Assembly (NCBI RefSeq): GCF_964019385.1 | Contig: NC_088650.1 | Location: 25,760,652-25,824,651 of the forward strand | DNA: 64,000 nucleotides | Source of the DNA: Sycon ciliatum | Lineage: Eukaryota > Porifera > Calcarea > Leucosolenida > Sycettidae | Reading direction: 5' to 3' | Shown: positions 508 through 62,575 of the stretch, one piece after another | Numbering within the stretch: the first letter of the stretch is position 1 | Layout of the letters: the number at the start of each line of letters is the position of its first letter | Made by a program: the position numbers and the translations under genes | The notes under the pieces: model-generated | The model's database searches: none | What the model saw: only the letters and a program-made list of their open reading frames with translations | Told to the model about the DNA's origin: nothing

Positions 508-21394
<20,887 letters not shown>

Positions 21395-28685: not shown

Positions 28686-55043
<26,358 letters not shown>

Positions 55044-55414: not shown

Positions 55415-55614
55415 NNNNNNNNNNNNNNNNNNNNNNNNNNNNNNNNNNNNNNNNNNNNNNNNNNNNNNNNNNNNNNNNNNNNNNNNNNNNNNNNNNNNNN
55501 NNNNNNNNNNNNNNNNNNNNNNNNNNNNNNNNNNNNNNNNNNNNNNNNNNNNNNNNNNNNNNNNNNNNNNNNNNNNNNNNNNNNNNNNNNNNNNNNNNNN
55601 NNNNNNNNNNNNNN
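55415..55614. other. Assembly gap of 200 N
   Basis: Exactly 200 unknown bases, a nominal-length scaffold gap. It sits between exon 30 of the C1q gene and the hammerhead repeat array, which probably caused it. Confidence 0.98.
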
Positions 55615-56171
55615 AAAGGAAAGGCCAGCCGGCTCCGGATAAGCGAGATATTATTATTATTATTATTGTGGAAGAGAAAAAGACATATGGATACGAGTTA
55701 AGAGTAACTCTCCATCACTGTAACATGATACTATATACAGTCAGAAAGTGCAATAACTAGGCACAAAACTGACAGAGTACTGAAACATTCGACGTCCTGA
55801 CACCTAGCTTCAACACATCTCCGTAGCGCTAACCGACAGCCTTCCAACTTGGAAGGTTCAAGGTTATGGAAAAGACCAAAGAGGGGAAGGCAAGCGCAAC
55901 GAAAACGAGCAAAAGCTACAGTCCCAACGGAACAAAGAATGTCGATTGTTACTGGACGATGACGAGACCAGTACGATATTTGACAAAGCGGTCTAACTAC
56001 AATTCGAAGCAGCAAAGCAGCACACCACCCAACTTGGGTGGGTCATAAATATCAAAGATAAGTAAAGAAAGGGAAGCTTTGCGAAAACGAATTGTACAAG
56101 CCGAAAGCCAAACTCCTACAGTACTCCTCATGCATGACATTGTGATGGACTAGTTGACTACAAAACAAGTT

Positions 56172-56235
56172 GTTTCACACGACGTACGTTTCGCCGTATG
56201 GTTCGTGACGGCTCATCAGGTGTGCAATTTGAAAC
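56172..56235 (-). ncRNA. Hammerhead ribozyme, unit 1
   Basis: Sequence as described for the plus-strand copy at 57570-57633, here on the minus strand. Stem I is CACAC/GUGUG plus GUUU/AAAC around an internal loop, the core is CUGAUGA and GAAA, and stem II is GCCGU/ACGGC. Predicted cleavage falls between plus positions 56181 and 56180, after GUC. Confidence 0.85.
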
Positions 56236-56763
56236 TCGGATGTTGAGCCATAAATAAATGTGGAAGAGAAAAAGACATATGGATACGAGTTAAGAGTAAC
56301 TCTCCATCACTGTAACATGATACTATATACAGTCAGAAAGTGCAATAACTAGGCACAAAACTGACAGAGTACTGAAACATTCGACGTCCTGACACCTAGC
56401 TTCAACACATCTCCGTAGCGCTAACCGACAGCCTTCCAACTTGGAAGGTTCAAGGTTATGGAAAAGACCAAAGAGGGGAAGGCAAGCGCAACGAAAACGA
56501 GCAAAAGCTACAGTCCCAACGGAACAAAGAATGTCGATTGTTACTGGACGATGACGAGACCAGTACGATATTTGACAAAGCGGTCTAACTACAATTCGAA
56601 GCAGCAAAGCAGCACACCACCCAACTTGGGTGGGTCATAAATATCAAAGATAAGTAAAGAAAGGGAAGCTTTGCGAAAACGAATTGTACAAGCCGAAAGC
56701 CAAACTCCTACAGTACTCCTCATGCATGACATTGTGATGGACTAGTTGACTACAAAACAAGTT

Positions 56764-56827
56764 GTTTCACACGACGTACGTTTCGCCGTATGGTTCGTGA
56801 CGGCTCATCAGGTGTGCAATTTGAAAC
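56764..56827 (-). ncRNA. Hammerhead ribozyme, unit 2
   Basis: Identical to the unit 1 motif and exactly 592 bases away, so cleavage at both sites would release a 592-nt monomer. Same strand as unit 1. Confidence 0.85.
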
Positions 56828-57364
56828 TCGGATGTTGAGCCATAAATAAATGTGGAAGAGAAAAAGACATATGGATACGAGTTAAGAGTAACTCTCCATC
56901 ACTGTAACATGATACTACTTCAAGTATATACAGTCAGAAAGTGCAATAACTAGGCACAAAACTGACAGAGTACTGAAACATTCGACGTCCTGACACCTAG
57001 CTTCAACACATCTCCGTAGCGCTAACCGACAGCCTTCCAACTTGGAAGGTTCAAGGTTATGGAAAAGACCAAAGAGGGGAAGGCAAGCGCAACGAAAACG
57101 AGCAAAAGCTACAGTCCCAACGGAACAAAGAATGTCGATTGTTACTGGACGATGACGAGACCAGTACGATATTTGACAAAGCGGTCTAACTACAATTCGA
57201 AGCAGCAAAGCAGCACACCACCCAACTTGGGTGGGTCATAAATATCAAAGATAAGTAAAGAAAGGGAAGCTTTGCGAAAACGAATTGTACAAGCCGAAAG
57301 CCAAACTCCTACAGTACTCCTCATGCATGACATTGTGATGGACTAGTTGACTACAAAACAAGTT

Positions 57365-57428
57365 GTTTCACACGACGTACGTTTCGCCGTATGGTTCGTG
57401 ACGGCTCATCAGGTGTGCAATTTGAAAC
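57365..57428 (-). ncRNA. Hammerhead ribozyme, unit 3
   Basis: Identical motif, 601 bases from unit 2; the extra 9 bases lie outside the ribozyme. Confidence 0.85.
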
Positions 57429-57569
57429 TCGGATGTTGAGCCATAAATAAATGTGGAAGAGAAAAAGACATATGGATACGAGTTAAGAGTAACTCTCCAT
57501 CACTGTAACATGATACTCGTATCCATATGTCTTTTTCTCTTCCACATTTATTTATGGCTCAACATCCGA

Positions 57570-57633
57570 GTTTCAAATTGCACACCTGATGAGCCGTCAC
57601 GAACCATACGGCGAAACGTACGTCGTGTGAAAC
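57570..57633 (+). ncRNA. Hammerhead ribozyme, inverted unit
   Basis: 5' to 3': GUUU (570-573), a 7-nt internal-loop strand, CACAC (581-585), CUGAUGA (586-592), GCCGU (593-597), a 10-nt loop, ACGGC (608-612), GAAA (613-616), palindromic ACGUACGU for a short stem III (616-623) ending in the cleavage triplet GUC (622-624), then GUGUG (625-629) and AAAC (630-633). Stem I closes perfectly on both sides, stem II has 5 pairs, and all core bases are present. Stem III can only form 2-3 pairs alone but 8 as a dimer, as in known short-stem-III hammerheads of retroelements. Confidence 0.88.
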
Positions 57634-58168
57634 AACTTGTTTTGTAGTCAACTAGTCCATCACAATGTCATGCATGAGGAGTACTGTAGGAGTTTGGCTT
57701 TCGGCTTGTACAATTCGTTTTCGCAAAGCTTCCCTTTCTTTACTTATCTTTGATATTTATGACCCACCCAAGTTGGGTGGTGTGCTGCTTTGCTGCTTCG
57801 AATTGTAGTTAGACCGCTTTGTCAAATATCGTACTGGTCTCGTCATCGTCCAGTAACAATCGACATTCTTTGTTCCGTTGGGACTGTAGCTTTTGCTCGT
57901 TTTCGTTGCGCTTGCCTTCCCCTCTTTGGTCTTTTCCATAACCTTGAACCTTCCAAGTTGGAAGGCTGTCGGTTAGCGCTACGGAGATGTGTTGAAGCTA
58001 GGTGTCAGGACGTCGAATGTTTCAGTACTCTGTCAGTTTTGTGCCTAGTTATTGCACTTTCTGACTGTATATAGTATCATGTTACAGTGATGGAGAGTTA
58101 CTCTTAACTCGTATCCATATGTCTTTTTCTCTTCCACATTTATTTATGGCTCAACATCCGAGTTTCAA

Positions 58169-58199
<31 letters not shown>

Positions 58200-58200
<1 letters not shown>

Positions 58201-58770
58201 GAAATGACCCAAAGGCAATGTGCCTATCGAGGGGTTCATTTGTGGGTATGATACCCAACTGATCCACGCTCCTCCATAAGGACAGCCAGCCGCCGTGTTG
58301 CTCCCTACATGGGAGCTCGCGGTTTTCCTGCCGACTTGAATTCTCACTTGACTGACTCACGACTGCCATCCAGAGCACACGATAAGTCCATCGAACCGTC
58401 CACTCGGCAAACCTGCAGTGTTTCGGGGGAATTCACCCGGAGCGTCTCTGTAAGTTTGTATGCCTGGTGATGTTTGTGCCTGGAGAGCACTATAAGTGGT
58501 GCTCTTCAGGCACAATCTTCCTTAGCCTACTCAAGCTCAACTGATGAGGGGTGAATTACCCGAAACTCTGTGTATTGAGCAGGGAGTGGTGCTTTCTTGC
58601 AGGTTTTGCGGAGTAGACGGTTCGATGGACTTCAACACACTCTTCTTTACGAAACGTTGTAAAGTAACGGAACTGGTTCGGATGTGCAGAGCTATGGGAA
58701 TTGGTGTGTCCACCCGAATTCCTTTCACAGATGAAGCTGCAGGAAGCCTCCGCCCTTCCTCAGTCCTTAT
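58200..58770. mobile_element. Retroelement-like fragment carrying the second hammerhead
   Basis: Bounded by (ATT)n tracts. Sequence 58385-58415 (CCATCGAACCGTCCACTCGG and on) recurs inverted at 58594-58630. On its minus strand the left copy keeps GGGTGAATTC..CCCCGAAAC but has lost CTGATGA, so it is a dead hammerhead. This looks like head-to-head ends of a Penelope-like or retrozyme element, without a protein frame. Confidence 0.5.
58535..58580 (+). ncRNA. Second, different hammerhead ribozyme
   Basis: GCUCAA (535-540), CUGAUGA (541-547), stem II from GGGGUGAAUUACCC (548-561), GAAA (562-565), short stem III AC/GU around UCUGU, triplet GUA (572-574), then UUGAGC (575-580), which pairs perfectly with GCUCAA. 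ACUC upstream (528-531) and GAGU downstream (584-587) can extend stem I beyond an internal loop. Stem II has three clean G-C pairs and then a mismatch or slipped pairing, so activity may be lower. It is unrelated in sequence to the 592-bp unit outside the core. Confidence 0.72.
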
Positions 58771-60512: not shown

Positions 60513-60640
60513 AAGAAGGAAACACATGGGAACGAGTGATGAGCAACTATCCACGACTGTAACAAGAAAATAAGCATCTATTTTACATTTAATACTGGCT
60601 CATTATCCGAATTTCCATTAGATAAACCTTGTTTTGTTGA
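60513..60640. repeat. Diverged relative of the 592-bp unit ends
   Basis: GGGAACGAGTGATGAGCAAC and CACGACTGTAAC parallel GGATACGAGTTAAGAGTAAC and CATCACTGTAAC of the array, and GGCTCATTATCCGAATTTCC parallels GGCTCAACATCCGAGTTTC. Only the two outer ends are recognisable and the ribozyme is gone. Confidence 0.5.
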
Positions 60641-61200: not shown

Positions 61201-62575
61201 CTAGGGTGCCGACACCACTTGGGCACAGATGCCCACCCAACCGCTTCGGTCAGCAGCAAGGGCACGGAACGCCTCCAGATCGACTTTGCTTGACAAGGAA
61301 AGTCCAATCCGCTTGGCATCATCTTGTAGTAGCGTTGGTAGTGTGTGTCTTGGTCGTCCCCTCCAGCCCGCTGGACGAGGCTCTGCGAAGTACGCTCCCA
61401 TGGCCAGTGATGGTGGGGAGTCAGCCGGGAGCCGGAGGACGTGCCCAAAGAGCCTCCACCTAGCTCTCAAGATGATAGTACCGAGAGGAACCGCGCCGGT
61501 ACGCTCATAGAGCCTCTAGTTCCTAATCCGATTCGGGAACACAATGCCGATTAGCACCCGCAGCTGTTTTCGGTGGAAGGCCTCAATACGGCTCAGCTGC
61601 TGTTTCGTTGGTGCCCATGTTGCACAATTGTAGCAGAGTACAGGGAGTACAAAGGCATTATAGAGCCGGATGCGGAGATCCTCCGAAACTAGCGACCTAC
61701 GGATCCACAGCGTCCAGAGTTTAGCAAAGGCAACAGTTGCCAGTTGCTGTCGCCGTAGCATATCCTCGGCATCACCTAATAGGGACCCGAGTTTCTTGGT
61801 GGTTCGCCACTCCTCCTCGACGCGATCAATGTGCCGTTCGATGTGCGTGTGCTCTGTTTTTGTCTCATTCACTTTCAAATCCCATTCGAGGAGCTTGTTG
61901 GATATGGTTGGAAGGAGGGTCCTCAGCCTCTCACCATCAGTAGTCACGAAATCCACATCGTCGGCGTAGGCAGTTTCAGTTGGTAACCCCAGGGAGATAT
62001 CGGCAGGGGGACGTGGTAGAAGAAGAGGCCGAACATCACGCAGCGCACCCTCAATGTACACAATGAAAAGAACAGGAGACAACGAGTCACCTTGGGGTGT
62101 GCCGCGGAGAGTATAATCTTTATTTAGAGTGGGGAATGACGGGCCCTTAGCGGATGGGAGTACAACCCGCAGTACGGTGTCCTGGAGGAGGTAACTGATC
62201 ATTCGGATTTCATCCGGCTGCAAGAACGATCCCAGCACCGAGATGAGCCGTGGCCTGCTTATACAGTCAAACGCTTTTGACATATCAATGCCTAGGATAT
62301 CCAGCGCACAGCGATAGCGTTGGCATCGAGCCGCCAACCATCGGTATGACCACACAACGTCTGTGGTGCTTCTGCTGGGGCGGAAACCACTCTGTGTGTG
62401 TGCAACGAAGTTGTTGACGTCCTTGTTGATCCTCCGCAGCACAATCAATGATAGATTCTACCTGAGCGCTGTGAGTAAAACCACGGGCCGTAGGTGACCG
62501 ACTGGTCCCCTTGATTTGCCAGGCTTTTGTAACGGAATAAGCGACCCACTACCGATGCTGTTCAGGTACATACAT
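61201..62575 (-). pseudogene. Non-LTR retrotransposon reverse transcriptase, two in-frame stops
   Basis: Reading leftwards: LIPLQKPGKSRGPVGHLRPV (fingers), SGFRPSRST, DMSKAFD (catalytic motif A), GTPQGDSLSPVLF (motif B), AYADDVDF (catalytic YADD), the KTEH region, a thumb/connection segment with LCYNCATWAPT, and the C-terminal RWRLFGHVLRLP and GWRGRPRHTLP blocks typical of endonuclease-type non-LTR elements. The frame is continuous for about 460 codons except for TAG at 62458-62460 and TAG at 61516-61518. The catalytic residues are intact. The 5' part with the endonuclease is missing, so this is a 5'-truncated, inactivated copy. Clade not assigned. Confidence 0.88.

Follow-up and report, generated by a model that had tools for sequence, protein, structure and literature searches.

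Anatomy of the array

The window analysed here, a 64,000-nucleotide stretch of the genome of the calcareous sponge Sycon ciliatum, contains a tandem array at 55667-58171 that consists of three antisense units and a 66-bp stub, joined head to head with an inverted 654-bp arm. Units 1 (55667..56258) and 2 (56259..56850) are each 592 bp long and have the same sequence, and unit 3 (56851..57451) measures 601 bp and carries a 9-bp insert near 56918-56926 that is absent from the opposite arm. The stub (57452..57517) is the start of a fourth unit and stops at the head-to-head junction. In all four, the ribozyme sense is the minus strand. The inverted arm (57518..58171; 1.1 units) has its ribozyme sense on the plus strand. 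The left edge of unit 1 is termed outer end A, and the right edge of the inverted arm, at unit position 560, outer end B. Both ends adjoin the target repeat (ATT)n, at 55650..55666 on the left and 58172..58200 on the right. An assembly gap of 200 N (55415-55614) lies 52 bp to the left of the array.

The unit has a GC content of 43.4%. Among the listed reading frames of at least 70 aa, those of the array reach at most 106 aa from stop to stop. Because none of these frames in the unit encodes a reverse transcriptase or a GIY-YIG endonuclease, the 592-bp unit is not itself a Penelope element.

Each of the three units contains one type I hammerhead motif on the minus strand (56175-56225, 56767-56817 and 57368-57418), and a fourth lies on the plus strand inside the inverted arm (57580-57630). 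The first-pass annotation had described these as four complete, identical motifs, three minus and one plus, and this was confirmed both by alignment to Rfam Hammerhead_1 (RF00163) and by a strict type I descriptor demanding the core, stem I, stem II, a short stem III and an NUH site. The Rfam match it had called for was found, but at 26.8 bits per motif it falls below the gathering cut-off of 34 (E-values of 0.0024 in a 6-kb search and 0.025 across the whole window), and no Rfam family scores at or above its gathering threshold in the window. The strict descriptor identified five sites in the window, namely the four array motifs and one at 6727(+), compared with none in 300 dinucleotide shuffles. 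In the array motifs, stem I has 5 + 4 pairs and a one-sided loop of 7 nt, the stem II loop has 10 nt, stem III is C-GUAC-G and the cut site is GUC. The assignment to a retrozyme-like element, whose predicted type I hammerhead has a very short stem III, is supported. Its copies are not exactly 592 bp apart, as had been claimed: the spacing in the window is 592 and then 601 bp, with the 9-bp insert in the third unit, and chromosome-1 arrays show periods of 591, 592, 593 and 596.

Other candidates were also observed in the window. The additional descriptor site, at 6710-6782 (+), has the pattern of a complete type I hammerhead and matches Rfam Hammerhead_HH9 at 29.6 bits against a gathering cut-off of 52. 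A second element-like stretch (58203-58770, plus strand) lies between ATT-type repeats and has inverted arms at 58384-58417 and 58598-58632 (91%); near 58541 it contains a hammerhead-like motif, which a loose pattern accepts and the strict descriptor does not. The window also contains a minisatellite at 53018-53663, with a 43-bp repeat in 15 copies (97% matches). Rfam matches to microRNA families across the head-to-head junction were rejected, as these scores reflect the perfect palindrome.

Copy number and age of the family

The S. ciliatum assembly (538 Mb, 313 contigs) was searched for further copies. At least 206 matches to the unit were found (40 of 775 first candidates were scored), and a 34-nt ribozyme core yielded 1,441 genome matches (700 + 741) with up to three mismatches, compared with none for the reversed control. 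The arrays range from tandem dimers to multimers and are spread over the genome. For closer analysis, 38 loci were used, comprising the window and 37 loci fetched from the listed matches; these were picked for high similarity and are therefore biased towards young copies. Their arms are mostly 98.5-100% identical to the window unit which, together with the 1,441 core matches, supports the recent amplification proposed in the annotation.

Older remnants can also be detected. Five decayed unit pieces occur elsewhere in the window as weak matches (76-83% identity, E from 2e-7 to 0.063). Two of them, an antisense piece at 60514-60567 (76%, E 1e-4) and an inverted piece at 60577-60615 (77%, E 0.063, weak), form a short decayed relative (60514..60615, plus strand) that is likewise arranged head to head. 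Given these decayed pieces and the near-identical arms at the loci read, the family is probably old and recently active.

Among the copies read, no clear difference in conservation was found between the hammerhead region and the rest of the unit (0.24 vs 0.28 changes per site). Stems I and II are kept in 98 of 99 descriptor hits, for which the descriptor itself requires the core. A search of viral and GTDB contigs found no match to the ribozyme pattern. A profile search for relatives used a profile built from the relatives it found and hence provides no independent support.

Two fixed outer ends

Segmentation of the 38 loci revealed the order of an insertion: antisense sequence from the left flank, a junction, and an inverted arm that is itself antisense when read from the right flank. 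Both arms are therefore antisense and read inwards, and this polarity is invariant. Adjacent plus/minus arm pairs number 44 and occur in 35 of the 38 loci, the other three (L041, L048 and L054) being single-arm. The inverted copy, first thought of as a means for both strands to yield ribozymes, is instead part of the regular architecture of the family. Reading the element as a retrozyme is correct as to its kind, with the inverted copy being the part of greater interest.

With end bands defined as unit 583-20 for A and 555-572 for B, 40 of the 44 pairs have one outer end in A (~591/1) and the other in B (~560), in either order (21 B/A and 19 A/B). The two sites lie ~31 nt apart. Within these 40 insertions, the A end falls exactly at 591 or 1 in 29 and the B end exactly at 560 or 561 in 33. 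The four exceptional pairs are L028:4869, where the left arm is interrupted by other DNA (outer ends B and A); L031:1016, which is truncated and 93-96% identical; L034:9931, cut off by the edge of the fetched stretch; and L036:4117, with a rearranged right arm.

Supporting this, 499 exact B ends lie directly after ATT genome-wide, with none for the reversed control. Among the first 100 listed chromosome-1 motifs, which partly overlap the loci read, six of seven clusters of mixed strand run minus then plus. The sole plus-then-minus cluster (C1:60876031-60878366) perhaps represents two neighbouring insertions. In the same set, 8 of 11 B ends with a motif up to 700 nt away are concordant with it; the three discordant motifs lie 209-238 nt off, nearer than the ~560 nt expected for the motif of a B arm.

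Flanks are mostly (ATT)n or (AAT)n, and the A end can adjoin either strand of the repeat. Target duplications were sought at 12 loci without a long pure ATT target, chosen by eye, of which one in (AT)n was dropped. The 11 remaining targets have duplications of 11, 12, 12, 12, 12, 13, 13, 13, 13, 14 and 14 bp, lengths in which a few bases at most may equally be part of the element. At one A/B insertion, L022:616, comparison of the left and right flanks found no target duplication.

Arms and their shared template

Arm statistics were collected from 42 pairs (84 arms), leaving aside L031:1016 and L034:9931. Arms exceed 592 nt in 49 of 84 cases, with the longest reaching 4,171 nt, and no correlation was found between the lengths of paired arms across the 42 pairs. 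The distribution of arm ends over the unit departs from uniformity (KS p 8e-4), and positions ~50-150 are over-represented. Linear monomers as the template would predict a cluster of arm ends at the ribozyme cut, which was not observed: 3 of 84 lie within 5 nt of it vs 1.6 expected.

Sequence variants link the two arms of each insertion. Within arrays, 69 variant positions are common to all copies and 73 differ, many of the latter being single-copy changes or lying at arm ends. At the 15 informative sites, where a variant recurs in at least two insertions, paired arms carry the same variant in 40 of 42 cases; the corresponding figure for shuffled pairings is 17% on average and 38% at most, and none of 2000 reach the observed value. 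When the commonest informative site is removed, agreement is 20 of 22 vs 3%. Because the variants agree in this way, both arms were copied from one RNA or from sister RNAs. A circular template is the best account of these shared variants, though a multimeric transcript of one array could explain them as well.

Predicted folding of the RNA

As a rotated circular monomer, the sense strand is predicted to fold at -175.7 kcal/mol, vs -143.3 +/- 6.6 for shuffled sequences (z -4.9, 0/60 as low). The circular complement folds more weakly, at -151.8 kcal/mol. The predicted circle does not show the hammerhead fold. Because its core UGAGCC pairs with an upstream GGCUCA, the ribozyme is masked in the predicted circle, and masking of this kind has been described for plant retrozymes (PMC7229834). 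For a 73-nt stretch that contains a single motif and its flanks, the minimum-energy fold is another structure (-14.4 kcal/mol, z 0.21), and the hammerhead fold, evaluated without tertiary contacts, has -8.0 kcal/mol.

On the sense strand, both A and B are located 5' of the position of cleavage, at a distance of ~54 nt in the case of B. Their predicted accessibility in 12-nt windows is within the top 5% for site A and the top 7% for site B. The predicted circle also contains, on the sense strand, two hairpins with an identical apical CCA-AGU-UGG and different stems.

How the arrays may have arisen

We propose, with a probability of about 0.77, that the array arose in a single insertion of a young, non-autonomous retrozyme without coding capacity, whose circular or multimeric RNA served as template for reverse transcription primed at two fixed sites by both ends of the cut DNA. 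What the genome shows directly is the structure and copy number of the insertions, their fixed ends, the duplicated targets and the variants common to paired arms. From there we infer self-cleavage, an RNA circle and an acting enzyme, along the following route. As in the known retrozyme pathway, type I hammerheads would cut a multimeric transcript into 592-nt monomers, and these would be ligated into circles. Judging from the anatomy of the insertions, a Penelope-type endonuclease/reverse transcriptase would make two cuts ~12 bp apart in AT-rich DNA, one in each strand and with a preference for (ATT)n; each 3' end would then prime reverse transcription at a fixed internal site of the RNA, one at A and the other ~31 nt away at B. 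Each cDNA would be extended round the template, for as many as seven units, until the two meet and are joined through microhomology or with the addition of a few bases, to produce the head-to-head array. As a caveat to the circle, multi-unit arms and shared variants would also be expected from a multimeric linear transcript.

This proposal can be extended further. Two reverse-transcriptase protomers might bind the same RNA circle, each at its own fixed site and with one of the cut strands as primer, and chase each other round it. Obligate A-plus-B priming would then be a general Penelope-type route for retrozymes, and self-priming would no longer be needed to explain why Penelope elements have inverted repeats and a single tail. 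We put this forward tentatively, as an idea that stands at somewhat less than even odds.

Other mechanisms can generate inverted arms. LINE-type target-primed reverse transcription with ordinary twin priming is known to yield inverted 5' segments, and a LINE reverse transcriptase is present in the window at 61519-62457 (89% identical over 61% of its length to S. ciliatum protein P0004, and 96% over 81% to EukProt protein P0001, whose prefix is that of S. ciliatum, in keeping with the host). Twin priming, however, uses the RNA 3' end once together with a variable internal site, whereas here both outer ends are fixed internal sites, each used once per insertion (40/44). Moreover, (ATT)n is found on both sides and either arm may span several units, so that we consider this origin unlikely.

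Self-priming or template switching of one cDNA onto itself would fit the head-to-head arrangement, and has been proposed for rotifer Penelope elements (PMC3846280, cited in part). It predicts palindromic junctions, but the junction positions differ widely between paired arms. Junctions have no inserted base in 29 of 42 pairs and inserted bases in the other 13, and microhomology of at least 2 nt is seen in 18 of 42 (43%), vs 15% for random joins. Target duplications at both outer ends fit priming from both flanks instead, making a self-primed origin distinctly improbable.

The tandem periods of 591-596 bp and the near identity inside arrays resemble a conventional satellite, in which unequal exchange or rolling circles of DNA multiplied the repeats and the ribozyme was carried along as a passenger. 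Against this very unlikely reading, insertions occur on many contigs with defined ends and with 11-14 bp duplications at the 11 targets read; the antisense-inward polarity is invariant, and folding is more favourable for the sense strand than for its complement (-175.7 vs -151.8 kcal/mol as circles). An assembly or read artefact (missed-adapter palindromes), which the 200-N gap 52 bp away might suggest, is extremely improbable, given that the arms differ in length, outer ends and flanks, that the 9-bp insert occurs in the third unit and not in the other arm, and that head-to-head pairs with differing junctions recur in 35 of 38 loci.

Retrozyme integration in animals has so far been a hypothesis. 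The forty insertions with one A and one B end leave a clear trace in the genome, one that can be looked for in any other retrozyme-bearing animal. Their arrangement also offers a simple explanation for why Penelope elements have an inverted structure and a tail.

Comparison with known retrozymes and Penelope-like elements

The metazoan non-LTR retrozymes described in PMC7229834 (Cervera and de la Pena 2020, cited in part) share with the sponge element a type I hammerhead in tandem, non-coding, low-GC units without LTRs, as well as a highly self-paired circular fold, which is predicted here. They differ in size, the sponge unit of 592 nt lying above the reported ~170-400 nt (150-450 bp), and in host, here a sponge. 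Because its unit exceeds the 150-450 bp range, the sponge element is regarded as a variant that would work like a retrozyme. The same source names PLEs 'a strong candidate' for moving animal retrozymes; in its main text the words inverted, opposite, orientation and sponge have 0 occurrences, and no insertion built head to head between two fixed ends is described. The sponge host would place a retrozyme in a non-bilaterian lineage, beside the cnidarian cases. No earlier report of a sponge retrozyme was found in the open-access literature, which is only part of the whole.

Amphibian hammerheads (newt, axolotl Amex1) likewise have a stem III of one non-conserved pair and a palindromic tetraloop (here C-GUAC-G), and this palindromic-stem-III class is said to act as dimers (PMC7229834); host, unit sequence and unit size differ. 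Plant LTR retrozymes have a unit size near 600-800 nt and, like the sponge element, a predicted circle in which the hammerhead pairs with a complementary sequence (features after PMC7229834; see also PMC4918200). However, theirs is a type III hammerhead with LTRs and 4-bp duplications, compared with type I, no LTRs and 11-14 bp in the sponge (PMC7229834, in part).

The host genome contains at least one Penelope-like element (L058, C1:2905900-2910600), with an 807-aa frame between 390-bp inverted arms of 96% identity. The frame has a GIY-YIG match of 24.5 bits (cut-off 22.6), and its relatives carry PF00078 and include three named S. ciliatum proteins. Its classification as Penelope-like rests on the frame, the GIY-YIG match, the relatives and the inverted arms, together with motifs that we take to be those of the group. 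At this one candidate locus, no sequence in common with the unit was found, including the priming region; it does not lie in (ATT)n, shows no tail difference between its arms, and the minimal hammerhead-like motif in its right arm has no Rfam match. L058 is thus at most a candidate for the partner element.

The closest parallels come from Penelope-like elements elsewhere. The purified lizard Penelope protein PAc cuts both strands, preferably at ATT, and extends both; it starts at two adjacent internal sites, whose interval forms a 30-40 bp 'tail', and the start site is no different between strands (PMC11167929). In that system, insertion was not lowered by mutating the ribozyme, and none of the RNA reads terminated at the site of cleavage (PMC11167929). 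Penelope copies in the rotifer Adineta vaga, for which self-priming was proposed, carry inverted pLTRs arranged head to head, are flanked by duplications of 8-10 bp and have a 31-bp tail at one of their ends (PMC3846280, in part). Head-to-head inverted ends, a ~31-nt tail at one end, short target duplications, ATT targets, a type I hammerhead and two internal priming sites (the priming here being judged from anatomy) are thus common to these elements and the sponge insertions (PMC11167929; PMC3846280, in part). In contrast, the sponge unit has no protein gene, its duplications are 11-14 bp vs 8-10 bp (PMC3846280, in part), its hammerhead is canonical where that of Penelope is minimal, and its tail is found at exactly one end in 40 of 40 A/B insertions, a feature that is optional in Penelope as far as the cited parts go. 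This anatomical match suggests that priming from two flanks may take the place of self-priming.
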